Source: Parvularcula mediterranea (GTDB lineage Bacteria > Pseudomonadota > Alphaproteobacteria > Caulobacterales > Parvularculaceae). From it: DNA of 64,000 nt. Both the position numbers and the translations under genes were made by a program. Positions 39,538 to 43,205 of the stretch are shown here, in pieces. Within the stretch, counting starts at the first letter, position 1. Every line of letters starts with the position of its first letter. The DNA is taken from assembly GCF_013085255.1 (NCBI RefSeq), contig NZ_JABFCX010000003.1:877288-941287 (forward strand), given 5' to 3'. The notes below the pieces were generated by a model. The model was given only the letters and a program-made list of their open reading frames with translations, was not told the DNA's origin and did not search any database.

Positions 39538-40631
39538 TGTCCGCTACTGCCGCGCCCATTGAAGAGTCCGCTGCTCAGCCCACGAACCTTCCTGTCGCGA
39601 AGGGATCGCCCGAGACTGCCGCCATCATTCTGTCGCTCCTCGAGCCTGAAACAGCCAAGGCTGTTGCCGCCTACTTCGATGAAGGACGGCTGGACCGGGC
39701 ACTCGACGCCTATGAACGCCTCGATATGGTGGATCAGGCGGAGATGCTTTCGGTCGTCAGGTCGTTCAATGCCACGCTCGATGGCGACCTGCCAGTAATC
39801 AGTGGAGGGACAAAGCGCGCGGCCTCTCTCCGCCGGCTCTTCTCAAGCCAGGAAGAACTCCCAGCCCTGCCCGGTCCTGATCAGGAGGACGAACCCCTGG
39901 CCGATCCCGGAAGCATTGCGGAGGGGGCGGAGCCCGAGGAGGTCTGGCGCTACGTCGCCGCTCTGTCGCCGGACAAGGCTGTGTCGCTCCTGCAAGGGGA
40001 GCGGCCAGGGCTTGTCGCCGCGGTCCTGTCGCGGCTTTCCCGGGACTCAGCGGTGGCGGTGCTTGGTAGCCTCGATGATGCGACAGCTGCCCGCATCTTG
40101 CTCATTAGCCTTGGAGAACATGCGCCTACGGAGGATACGTACGACGCTATCGCGGAGACCCTACGGCAGCGTGCTCCCTCACGGCTTGAAAGCGTCGGCC
40201 TCGATACGAAGGCGATGCTGACCCGGACCTCGGCGCTCCTCAACGCAATGCAGCCGCGGCGGCAAGCGGCGCTGATGAAGGGCATCGAACAGGCGGCACC
40301 CGCTGCCCATGAACAGCTCGCGCCGAACGTCCTGCGCTTCTCGACCCTGCCCGAGCGGTTGCCGAAGACGATCGTCCCCGCACTCTTCCGGGAGATGGAT
40401 GACGAAGTCACCGACCGGGCGCTCAAGCTTGCTCTTGAGACGGAGGTTCCCGTCGCTGAGTTTCTCCTCAGCTGTATCTCGCAGCGGCTCGCCGAGATGA
40501 TCCGTGAACGCGTGCGGGAGCGCCCGGCCGTCTCGCGCGAGGAAGGCGAGGAGGCGCAGGCGCTCTTGATGCAGACATTGGTTGACTGGGCGGAGGAGGA
40601 CCGCTTCGCCTTCAAGCCTCCAAAGGGATGA
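39537..40631 (+). CDS. fliG: Divergent FliG-like flagellar motor switch protein
   Basis: The protein has 364 residues. The FliG pattern of N-terminal, middle and C-terminal armadillo-like domains is visible in KGSPETAAIILSLLEPETAK, AALSPDKAVSLLQGERPGLV, AAVLSRL and the late FREMDDEVTDRALKLALETE. Usual C-terminal motor residues are poorly conserved, and a Pro/Asp-rich insert lies near 105-130. Location after fliF-fliN-fliP supports a C-ring role. The start overlaps the fliP stop by one base. Confidence 0.8.
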   Translation: MSATAAPIEESAAQPTNLPVAKGSPETAAIILSLLEPETAKAVAAYFDEGRLDRALDAYERLDMVDQAEMLSVVRSFNATLDGDLPVISGGTKRAASLRRLFSSQEELPALPGPDQEDEPLADPGSIAEGAEPEEVWRYVAALSPDKAVSLLQGERPGLVAAVLSRLSRDSAVAVLGSLDDATAARILLISLGEHAPTEDTYDAIAETLRQRAPSRLESVGLDTKAMLTRTSALLNAMQPRRQAALMKGIEQAAPAAHEQLAPNVLRFSTLPERLPKTIVPALFREMDDEVTDRALKLALETEVPVAEFLLSCISQRLAEMIRERVRERPAVSREEGEEAQALLMQTLVDWAEEDRFAFKPPKG

Positions 40632-40941
40632 CCCGCTGAAGGCCCTCAGCGGCGAGAACGTCGCCGAAGTGGCCGGTCATAGACGGCCGAACACTGATCG
40701 TCATGACGGCGTTGAGGGCAGCGAAGGCCTCCTGCCCACCCTGACCGTTCCCTGACAGCTCATCAAGAAACCTCTCCGACGCGAAGGCATGGAGCGCGTA
40801 GTGCGTCGCAGGCTCGGCACCATCCGTAGACAGCGGCACGTTATACTCCGCCCCCGAATTACCGATCGACAGGCCGAAGGCTTCTGCGTCAGCCTTGTGC
40901 TGCTGGGGCACGATGAGGACAACCGAGTGGGAATAGCTCAT
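40612..40941 (-). CDS. Third gene of the head-spike module, unknown function
   Basis: This 109-residue protein has no clear domain. It begins SYSHSVVLIVPQQHKADAEA, contains GNSGAEYNVPLS and ends with a MTISVRPSMTGHFGDVL segment. Its start overlaps the stop of the spike-like gene by one base, so it is translationally linked to the head-spike pair. Its 3' end overlaps fliG by 20 nt on the opposite strand. Small partners of this kind occur in phage-like tail or spike operons; a chaperone role is a guess. Confidence 0.6.
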   Translation of the reverse strand: MSYSHSVVLIVPQQHKADAEAFGLSIGNSGAEYNVPLSTDGAEPATHYALHAFASERFLDELSGNGQGGQEAFAALNAVMTISVRPSMTGHFGDVLAAEGLQRVIPLEA

Positions 40942-41726
40942 CAGGACACGCCCATCTTCTCTGCGACCCAGTCGCGGGCCAGGGTCTCCTCCGCCGCATC
41001 AATCACCTGGTCTGTGTAAAGAAGAAGGCCGAACAGGTTCATCTGCATCGCAGCGCTCCCGACGCCGTCCACCGCGCCGAGATAGGCAGGGGTGGAGCGG
41101 ACGGCAGGCGTGGCGGCGAGGGCTTCCACCTTCTGCTGGCCGCCTTCGACCGTGGCGTCACAGAAGCCGCCCCCGAATTTGACGATAGAGATCTGCGGGC
41201 CAGCGATCCTGAGGACGGCGGTGCGGTGATAGCTTCCATCAGCAAGCGGATATTTGGTGGCGAGCTTGGTCCCTATGGAGAGCATGTCGCTGAGGTCGGG
41301 GTTGATCCCGTCCCGGTTGCCAATCACCGTGCCGTGGGCGATGGGGTCAAGCCCTGCGACCACGGAGAAGGCCGCGCCGAAGGTCGCGCCATTGATGACG
41401 AGCACGTCGTCCACCCCGTCAAAGGCCAGCGCAGGTTTGCCGCCCACAAGCTCCAGCCGGGGCCTCGCCGCGTCGGAGGGGGCGACGGCGTCAAGGCCGT
41501 TGCCTGAGCGGTCGAGCATCCGTCCGACCACGTCGCCGATGGCGGGGGCTGGCCCCGTGCCGTCCCGGGCGATGGTCATGGAGGAAAAGTCCGAGGGGTC
41601 GAGCCAGAAGCCTGCCTCTCCCCCGTCGAAGGGCTGGGGCTCAGCGGGGGGCGGAGGCGGCGGGGCCACGGGCGCGCCCAGGGGGTAGCGCGCGCCGGGG
41701 CTGTGGGTCAGGCCAAGGCGCATCAC
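40941..41726 (-). CDS. Phage/GTA-type head-spike or fibre protein
   Basis: This 261-residue protein has a Pro-rich linker (about 22-32). A LamG/concanavalin-like beta-sandwich follows: FWLDPSDFSSMTI, DRSGNGLDAVAPS, GKPALAFDGVDDVLVI, FSVVAGLDP and LFGLLLYTDQVI. This layout is common in phage and gene-transfer-agent receptor-binding proteins. It overlaps the spike-base gene by 4 nt. By position it matches the second head-spike gene of Rhodobacter capsulatus GTA; sequence identity was not tested. Confidence 0.65.
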   Translation of the reverse strand: MMRLGLTHSPGARYPLGAPVAPPPPPPAEPQPFDGGEAGFWLDPSDFSSMTIARDGTGPAPAIGDVVGRMLDRSGNGLDAVAPSDAARPRLELVGGKPALAFDGVDDVLVINGATFGAAFSVVAGLDPIAHGTVIGNRDGINPDLSDMLSIGTKLATKYPLADGSYHRTAVLRIAGPQISIVKFGGGFCDATVEGGQQKVEALAATPAVRSTPAYLGAVDGVGSAAMQMNLFGLLLYTDQVIDAAEETLARDWVAEKMGVS

Positions 41727-41983
41727 GCGAGGCCGACGATCCCGGTGGCACTGGTCCCCGTGGCGAGGATGCGGCTGGCCAGCACCGCATACTGAACACC
41801 CGGCTGGAGCGCAGGCAGGGTCACGCTGTCACCGCCCGTGGTGACAAGCGCGACATCCCCCGCCGAGGCAACCATCAGCCCACGGATAGGCAGGGCAAGG
41901 TCACTCCCGTCAGAAGGCGTCACAGAAAACCCGCGGCTCGGCGGGCTCTCAAGCCCAGGCTGAAGCGTGGTAAGATCGGTCAT
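41723..41983 (-). CDS. Spike base protein (Rcc01079-like)
   Basis: This 86-residue protein shows the pattern of the GTA spike-base family: FSVTPSDGSDLALPIRGLMV, AGDVALVTTGGDSVTLPALQ and the C-terminal VLASRILATGTSATGIVGL. In Rhodobacter capsulatus this small protein forms the base of capsid spikes that bind the recipient capsule. It is the first gene of a three-gene overlapping operon, with no capsid, portal or tail gene adjacent. Presence of a GTA elsewhere in the genome is inferred, not seen. Confidence 0.75.
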   Translation of the reverse strand: MTDLTTLQPGLESPPSRGFSVTPSDGSDLALPIRGLMVASAGDVALVTTGGDSVTLPALQPGVQYAVLASRILATGTSATGIVGLA

Positions 41984-42086
41984 GGCATCGGTCCGTATAG
42001 CTACAGACCGGGATGGTAGGGGGTGCGGGACGGGCGGGGATAAGTCACCACTAAAAGTGCTCGCGCAGCACGCTATCTACTTCAAG

Positions 42087-43205
42087 TTAGTTTGCTTTGC
42101 TGCCTATCTTCCGACCACTTCGAGCAACATTTTGCACCTGCAACTTCTTTACCCCGGCGTCGACGTAGCGGACAAAGTCGGTAGCATCAGTGAAGTAGTT
42201 CTGAAAGACACGCTTGAGGGCTTTCAAGTCTCCGGCGCGCACCAAAACGATATCAGCTTGGCCGTCGTACCGGCGTTCTAACTCTTCGTAGCGCTTTATT
42301 GCTACTCGCATGTTCCGGAAGCCGAAGCCTTGGAGCTTTCCATCGTCTTCGAATGGATATACCAGAATCGTGTTGAGACCACCGCCGACGATCCGCGATG
42401 GGATTTGTGGGATGCGTTCATTAGACCGCCGCAAAATTCTAAGGAGGCTAGTAGCTGCATTCAGCCTACGGAACTCTCTAAGTAGGTCTGTATCTTCTCG
42501 GCCACACCACGACGAAACGGAGTTCTCTTTTGTCCGCGCAAGTATTTCAGAGCAGGCAACAAAAAAGTCGTGGTACTCTTGCGACGCTTGATTAAATTTT
42601 CCCCTGCTCCGAGTGAGAAGGTCAGCAATCTCTACCGCTGTCGCCCACGCATGTTGGACACGGGTTCGAAACTGTACTTCGATACGAAGGCCATTCCAAG
42701 CCGCTGCTGATGGTTGATAAGCCTCGTATTTGTAAACGTCATGGATACCCCGATAGCCGGTCGGCTTAGGGCGATGGAGATAATTGAACTGGTCCCTATG
42801 AGCCGTCAGCCGGTCGTGTTTCGCGCGCGACGAGTTGAACTCCTCGCGGAAGTCCAACATTTGCTCAACCGTGTCGAAGATCACCCGGCAGCCCGCAATA
42901 TCATGCATCCGTGAGAGTTGCATTTGCGGCTGCCGGGTCAATTTATCGACGATGGTCGGACGTCGTTTGAGCCGCTGACCAACAACGGCGCTCGTCCCTT
43001 TTGCTCTTCGTCGCAGAGTTGCTTGAAACGTGTTGATGACGTGGGCGTGGGCTCCCCGCCAGTTTTCGAGAACCAACCGGTCCTCTACCGACGAAGAACC
43101 CTTGCGGATTGCGTCGCCCGCCCGGTCGACGCGAGACCGGGAGTAGAGGGGTACAATTCCAGTGGCGGTTTTTGCCAATTCACGCTTCCCATCATCTTCC
43201 CTCAT
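42087..43205 (-). CDS. RelA/SpoT-domain protein, possible toxic or small alarmone synthetase
   Basis: The protein has 372 residues. The synthetase motifs are intact: RMHDIAGCRVIF (about 99-110), the KPTGYRGIHDVYKYE loop (about 147-161) and IEVQFRTRVQHAWA (about 175-188) with catalytic Glu176. There is no HD hydrolase, TGS or ACT domain. A C-terminal ~150-residue region (ILVYPFEDDG, IVLVRAGDLKALKRVFQNYF) is of unknown type. The base composition is visibly more AT-rich than its neighbours, hinting at transfer. No antitoxin gene is next to it. It might make (p)ppGpp or pyrophosphorylate another target in phage defence. Confidence 0.75.
   Translation of the reverse strand: MREDDGKRELAKTATGIVPLYSRSRVDRAGDAIRKGSSSVEDRLVLENWRGAHAHVINTFQATLRRRAKGTSAVVGQRLKRRPTIVDKLTRQPQMQLSRMHDIAGCRVIFDTVEQMLDFREEFNSSRAKHDRLTAHRDQFNYLHRPKPTGYRGIHDVYKYEAYQPSAAAWNGLRIEVQFRTRVQHAWATAVEIADLLTRSRGKFNQASQEYHDFFVACSEILARTKENSVSSWCGREDTDLLREFRRLNAATSLLRILRRSNERIPQIPSRIVGGGLNTILVYPFEDDGKLQGFGFRNMRVAIKRYEELERRYDGQADIVLVRAGDLKALKRVFQNYFTDATDFVRYVDAGVKKLQVQNVARSGRKIGSKAN

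Follow-up and report, generated by a model that had tools for sequence, protein, structure and literature searches.

A three-gene module beside flagellar genes of Parvularcula mediterranea as the probable head spike of a gene transfer agent

Why should a gene for the base of a head spike stand in a bacterial chromosome between flagellar genes and thiC, with no capsid, portal or tail genes nearby? This question is raised by three small genes, here termed A, B and C, in a 64,000-nucleotide (nt) stretch of the genome of Parvularcula mediterranea (genome G000, C2:877288-941287; the whole of the stretch analysed is called the window), which an initial annotation had taken for the orphan head-spike module of a gene transfer agent (GTA) encoded elsewhere. 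In our assessment the three genes most likely form the head-spike module of a Parvularcula GTA of the type characterised in Rhodobacter capsulatus (RcGTA). This reading is based on the homology of gene A, the gene order and overlaps, the conservation of the module in four species, the main GTA cluster, a promoter-like element shared with that cluster and the linkage of genes B and C in phages. The tight overlaps noted in the initial annotation were confirmed, each of the two junctions consisting of a TGATG with a 1-nt overlap:

Gene A, 41723..41983, minus strand: head-spike base protein of the GhsA/Rcc01079 family, 86 amino acids (aa)
Gene B, 40941..41723, minus strand: predicted head-spike fibre, 260 aa with ATG as start (261 aa if an in-frame GTG is used)
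Gene C, 40612..40941, minus strand: putative fibre partner, 109 aa, of a family without a name

The assignment of gene A, which ends in ATGTSATGIVGLA, as a spike base was upheld by matches to NCBIfam NF048002 ‘spike base protein, RCAP_Rcc01079 family’ (E 3.4e-25; 88.1 bits with a cut-off of 28) and to the ‘Head spike base Rcc01079’ of PDB 6tb9 (E 2.8e-8), and PHROG 12296 ‘tail fiber protein’ was also matched (E 1.8e-19). Gene B yielded no match in Pfam, PHROGs, NCBIfam or PDB sequences, so that its description as LamG-like stands by predicted fold but not by family score. Its product comprises an N-terminal MRLGLTH, a PPPPPP linker and a predicted LamG/ConA-like domain, which the AlphaFold model (predicted local distance difference test, pLDDT, 84) renders as a ConA/LamG-like jelly roll followed by a C-terminal helix, the first 10–20 residues having a pLDDT of 60 or less. 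The best fold match of this model is the tailspike of cyanopodophage Pan3 (9vyh chain p; VIA Z 18.6, root-mean-square deviation 6.8, 223 aligned residues), although identity is 14%, the Pan3 protein belongs to a tail rather than a head, and other ConA-like domains score nearly as well, VIA Z values of 16–18.6 being obtained against the phage tailspike, proteins that cleave or bind arabinose and further lectin-like domains. Matches to clostridial toxin binding domains were set aside as reflecting the common ConA-like lectin fold, and have no bearing on toxicity.

The main GTA cluster predicted to exist elsewhere in the genome was located, with a complete head-tail set of open reading frames (ORFs) in RcGTA-like order and a GTA_TIM domain at C2:593502-594386 (E 7.9e-136). 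Terminase (Terminase_6N/6C), portal (TIGR01537), prohead protease (Peptidase_S78) and HK97 capsid (TIGR01554) are followed by a head-tail connector, a head closure protein (just under the cut-off), a gp17-type tail completion protein, a major tail protein (under the cut-off) and a tape-measure-like protein, after which come a distal tail protein of the Rcc01695 type, the baseplate hub, NlpC/P60 and GTA_megatron (1430 bits). The capsid protein matches Rcc01687 of PDB 6tb9 at E 3.7e-78. The spike module is situated approximately 314 kb from the promoter of this cluster, an arrangement which, as the initial annotation had pointed out, parallels that of Rhodobacter capsulatus. As in the RcGTA head spike GhsA/GhsB (Rcc01079/Rcc01080), the base belongs to the same NCBIfam family, the fibre gene lies directly downstream, the fibre N terminus alternates hydrophobic residues, and the pair is sited away from the main cluster, which the genome has in complete form. 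Unlike its RcGTA counterpart, the Parvularcula fibre has 260 rather than 325 aa, fewer star positions and a LamG-type receptor domain, and the module possesses a third, overlapping gene.

The module was sought in 62 genomes of the family, ten of which belong to the genus Parvularcula. The spike base is present in four and gene C in the same four, while the GTA_TIM marker occurs in 48. All carriers (G000, G052, G054 and G056) are Parvularcula, and all display fliF-fliN-fliP-fliG, the convergent C-B-A, a variable gene or two, and thiC, so that the co-occurrence of A and C in one order at one syntenic site exceeds what chance would give. On a GTA TIM tree of 17 rows the four carriers require one change, with weak support (75/80). 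Among spike-less Parvularcula, fliG is followed by flgI in G057 and by a GcrA-like gene in G058 (labels assigned by eye), and no clear gene order was seen in G055. In G051 and G055 the GTA_TIM profile was matched in a fragment only, at 91–92 of its 299 positions, and the GTA of these genomes may be divergent or decaying.

The three genes differ markedly in their rate of change. The base proteins of the other carriers are 74–81% identical to that of the window, with non-synonymous divergence (dN) of 0.18–0.31 against synonymous divergence (dS) of 1.1–2.2 among the four species, while the fibres are 24–42% identical (dN 0.59–1.13) and the products of gene C 30–52% identical (dN 0.44–0.97), dS exceeding 1 or being undefined in both cases. 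A conserved base bearing a fast-changing fibre is as would be expected of a receptor-binding part. Residue Glu12 of the base is retained in three of the four proteins and is Ser in G056; the GDG loop of the capsid is retained in G000, G052 and G054, as well as in spike-less G050, and is changed in G053 and G057. In RcGTA, base Glu12 is paired with Asp210 of the capsid as its acceptor; the numbering of the paper and of the chain could not be reconciled for this residue, and the presence of the same loop in spike-less G050 makes it a poor discriminator.

A link between module and cluster is provided by an element upstream of gene A:

Promoter-like element, 42015..42045, minus strand: ACTTATCCCC at 42045-42036, putatively assigned as a promoter

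Within the element, a 17-nt spacer separates TTATCC from CCTACC, the presumed -10 being placed at 42015-42020. Ahead of gene A, ACTTATCCCC is exact in three of the four carriers and takes the form AGTTATCCCC in G052, with TTATCCCC preceding the start codon by 62 (G000), 65 (G054), 65 (G056) and 66 nt (G052, counted by hand). Ahead of the main GTA cluster, ACTTATCC was found in all six genomes read (G000, G050, G052, G053, G054 and G057), a set that does not include G051, G055 and G058, nor G056, where the contig breaks off at the cluster start; in G050 it is positioned 87 nt upstream of the start of terS given for P. bermudensis in PMC6854486. In P. maris the module and cluster promoters share 27 identical base pairs, whereas 1000 random pairs of 150 nt reached no more than 13. 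The element is also found ahead of a DUF2793 gene in G000 and of a homologous gene (50% identity) in G053; DUF2793 is a domain that marks the RcGTA tail fibre Rcc00171. The 10-mer ACTTATCCCC occurs at 18 sites in G000 and at none when read backwards, the corresponding forward and backward counts being 3 and 3 in G050, 12 and 1 in G052, 8 and 3 in G053, 26 and 1 in G054, 13 and 2 in G056, and 5 and 4 in G057; the surrounding loci were inspected for 30 of the 67 element sites in relatives.

The CtrA/GafA-type control suggested by the initial annotation was not found, and this different shared element was seen instead: no CtrA half-site (TTAA) is present within 150 nt upstream of any of the four modules, and no DUF6456 protein (GafA-like; PF20057) was detected in this genome with a search for which the Caulobacter control was positive. 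Regulators of the GafA/GafY type are linked to DUF6456, and TTATCC resembles a DnaA box, which is offered as a lead only. In PMC6363796 and PMC9638019 the N terminus of GafA is likened to the DNA-binding domain of DnaA, and the latter source also reports CtrA half-sites upstream for RcGTA; such half-sites are a regulatory trait of one species and not a defining part of the spike.

Several further occurrences of the element merit description. In two genomes ACTTATCCCC stands some 180 nt ahead of a gene identified by eye as ffh (L075 in G000 and L151 in G052), and at G000:C2:138354 and 139268 (L080/L081) near-identical 60-nt copies containing it flank a small ORF which by eye resembles a transposase associated with repetitive extragenic palindromic (REP) sequences. 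A second (AC)TTATCCCC is located inside the GTA protease gene, in the same codons (L-I-P), in five genomes (L021:16066 in G000, L093:9976 in G052, L024:5018 in G054, L027:8105 in G053 and L094:7320 in G057). Some of these sites are followed by TTAGGATG-like bases at promoter distance. They may represent a promoter within the cluster that serves the capsid gene, or simply conserved codons.

How the module might function can be envisaged by analogy with RcGTA, for which PMC7296036 describes a base pentamer on the capsid pentamers, a star formed by fibre residues 2–10 and a flexible fibre that binds the capsule. The product of gene A would likewise form a pentamer serving as a base on the capsid vertices of the particle, to which the fibre would be pinned by its short alternating-hydrophobic N terminus, MRLGLTH being the segment that probably binds the base. 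Beyond the polyproline hinge, the LamG/ConA-like domain would bind surface sugars or polysaccharide of the recipient cell. The product of gene C would arise by coupled translation with gene B and act on the fibre during or after its synthesis, and promoters with a common ACTTATCCCC would drive joint transcription of the module and the main GTA cluster.

A number of observations weigh against the assignment of the module to the GTA. The module is known here from its genes and not from particles. The co-occurrence of spike base and GTA marker is uninformative (Fisher p 0.57), since the marker is present in 48 of the 62 genomes and the base in only four, nor is an orphan spike base always a sign of a GTA, a megatron match being obtained in 7 of 13 other spike-base genomes (above the cut-off in five). 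The N-terminal star motif of the fibre is shorter than that of RcGTA: the N termini of the four species (MRLGLTH, MRLSLSLG, MAAAALGLGL and MRLGLTH) follow the alternating pattern but with two or three leucines each, as opposed to the four leucines and an isoleucine given in PMC7296036. In G000 and G052 the similarity of the module and cluster promoters (13 and 11 nt) is within the random maximum (13 and 12), and ACTTATCCCC is not specific to the GTA, 14 of its 18 sites in G000, including those at ffh and in repeats, having no visible GTA link. The latter count rules out the element as a GTA-specific operator, and we read it as a promoter class of which the GTA makes use. Finally, the genome has no DUF6456 protein, and gene C has no homologue of known function, its PDB fold matches not being significant.

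Gene C requires separate consideration, as the initial annotation had proposed an undescribed third spike partner. The gene is real and belongs to an unnamed family, but it is not a general spike component: a search at E 1 failed to detect it in any of 13 spike-base regions from 12 further genomes of Alphaproteobacteria (two additional weak places were left out). No match was obtained in Pfam, PHROGs, NCBIfam or PDB sequences, nor among INPHARED phages at E 0.1. Relatives were recovered from 21 viral loci and from four loci of the genome collection, namely three Parvularcula and Sphingopyxis yananensis, and an alignment of 22 rows displays the motif PLSxDGxEPxTH. The AlphaFold model derived from these rows (pLDDT 91.9; predicted template modelling score, pTM, 0.84) has a ferredoxin-like alpha/beta fold for which Foldseek returned nothing in the PDB at E <= 0.001, while two uncharacterised viral models match it within that threshold; resemblances to PII and ferredoxin-like proteins (VIA Z up to 5.6) were too weak for use.

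What characterises gene C is its company, in phages as in Parvularcula: it accompanies a LamG-type fibre. A profile built from the four Parvularcula fibres only, with the N-terminal part cut, was run on 1096 ORFs of 22 non-Parvularcula loci, and in 15 of these, mostly viral contigs, a LamG-type fibre overlaps the start of gene C by 1 or 4 nt (two of the matches being weak, E 0.001–0.007). In L069–L071, which have the same C, the fibre ends 190 nt ahead of the chosen start and in L060 it lies 2.8 kb away, while L057, L061 and L063 gave no match at E 0.01, gene C being near the locus end in all three. Among 80 viral spike-base loci kept out of 355 viral relatives, seven contain a LamG-type fibre, and the four with gene C all fall within those seven, none of the other 73 having it (Fisher p 2e-5, near-copies not removed). 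LamG fibre and gene C appear to be a phage-type receptor-binding cassette.

Since gene C overlaps gene B by 1 nt, coupled translation is likely, and its exclusive tie to one fibre type suggests direct contact; it probably folds, assembles or caps the fibre. Genes downstream of phage fibres often encode chaperones of the T4 gp38/Tfa type, which gene C resembles in being small, immediately downstream of the fibre gene and coupled to it, albeit with no sequence or significant fold match to any such protein. That the product is instead a structural tip or cap, and hence part of the particle, is a possible but somewhat less likely alternative: strict coupling to one fibre type would also suit a dedicated tip, the model predicts a compact fold with good confidence, and in L069 the gene lies in the head gene region. 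The frequent occurrence of chaperones at this position is in favour of an assembly role, but the observations as a whole fit either reading.

The order base, LamG fibre, C is found contiguously in viral contigs L058, L069, L218, L223 and L227, and with a gap in L198, and is identical to that of Parvularcula. In L069 the three genes directly follow a major head protein (PHROG 264, E 4e-95). Overlapping genes and alternating hydrophobic fibre N termini are seen in the phage base-fibre pairs as in the RcGTA structure paper (PMC7296036). Unlike these phage modules, that of Parvularcula stands alone, with the particle genes 314 kb away. Within L069 (1446-4130), an ORF which by eye resembles a GIY-YIG homing endonuclease splits the fibre gene between its N-terminal and C-terminal LamG-type parts.

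A broader proposal, to which we would give slightly less than an even chance, is that gene C is the first member of a family of proteins devoted to partnering head fibres, common to phages and a GTA, that a LamG cassette of fibre domain and gene C moves between phage head spikes and the domesticated particle, and that the GTA changes its recipient range by taking up a phage module, under its own promoter type and beside a slot for anti-phage defence genes. As far as our searches reach, three things are new, namely gene C together with its association with LamG fibres across phages, the presence of the module in Parvularcula, and the promoter element common to module and cluster, while a base-fibre pair outside the main cluster was known from RcGTA; no earlier report of gene C or of the ACTTATCCCC element was found in open-licence papers, supplements excluded. 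The head spikes of the Rhodobacter capsulatus GTA, in which such spikes have been studied, bind the capsule and control which cells receive DNA. Another lineage, with a different fibre type and a linked small partner, renders testable both the role of phage-type head-fibre partners and the retargeting of GTAs by borrowed phage receptor-binding cassettes, and the shared element gives a point of entry to the control of the GTA where no GafA-like DUF6456 protein was detected.

The phage relatives of all three genes, and the occurrence of base, fibre and C together in five viral contigs, might indicate that the module is a decoration cassette left behind by a vanished prophage, retained by accident or for some other function and not belonging to the GTA particle, and the adjoining slot does take up foreign genes. 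We consider this improbable. The absence of phage structural genes noted in the initial annotation holds for the ten flanking genes scanned, four of which are FliF, FliN, FliP and FliG (the flagellar neighbourhood) and one ThiC, the remainder being a LysR regulator, a CMD family protein, a metallo-beta-lactamase fold protein, a histidine kinase and adenylosuccinate synthetase; ORFs beyond these were read by eye. In three relatives, inspection by eye of approximately 20 kb surrounding the module revealed no other phage gene, and all four Parvularcula modules are located outside prophages. Open frames at one syntenic site in four diverged species, the low dN of gene A relative to dS and the promoter element common to module and GTA cluster likewise speak against a prophage remnant. 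The fli genes lie on one side of the module, the 3′ end of gene C reaching 20 nt into the end of the convergent fliG, and thiC, the histidine kinase and adenylosuccinate synthetase (purA) on the other.

That the base-fibre pair acts on the surface of the cell or in exporting polysaccharide, rather than on a particle, is suggested by base-fibre pairs in polysaccharide neighbourhoods of three f13-family genomes (L113, L114 and L118) and by two f13 genomes without megatron, but is highly improbable given the flagellar and thiC neighbours, the complete GTA and the common promoter element in Parvularcula. No match to the GTA megatron was obtained in genomes G186 and G400, and in L113 (G337), L114 (G268), L118 (G186) and L119 (G273) the spike base and a long fibre adjoin sugar dehydratase, O-antigen ligase, glycosyltransferase and YjbH genes.

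The slot between thiC and the module is occupied in the window by a neighbour outside the spike module:

RelA/SpoT-domain gene, 42087..43205, minus strand: Pfam E 3.2e-13; PADLOC PDC-S33 E 4.2e-100

Each Parvularcula carrier has a different gene set in this slot (window 42087-43205; L029:6417-8443; L028:7862-9486; L030:13747-14268). No PADLOC match was obtained for the slot of a Parvularculaceae metagenome-assembled genome; the other three contain a candidate PDC-S33 (the window), a type II-A retron reverse transcriptase with NDT (P. maris) and a candidate PDC-M41 A+B (P. lutaonensis), and the slot beside the GTA spike genes looks like a small defence hotspot.

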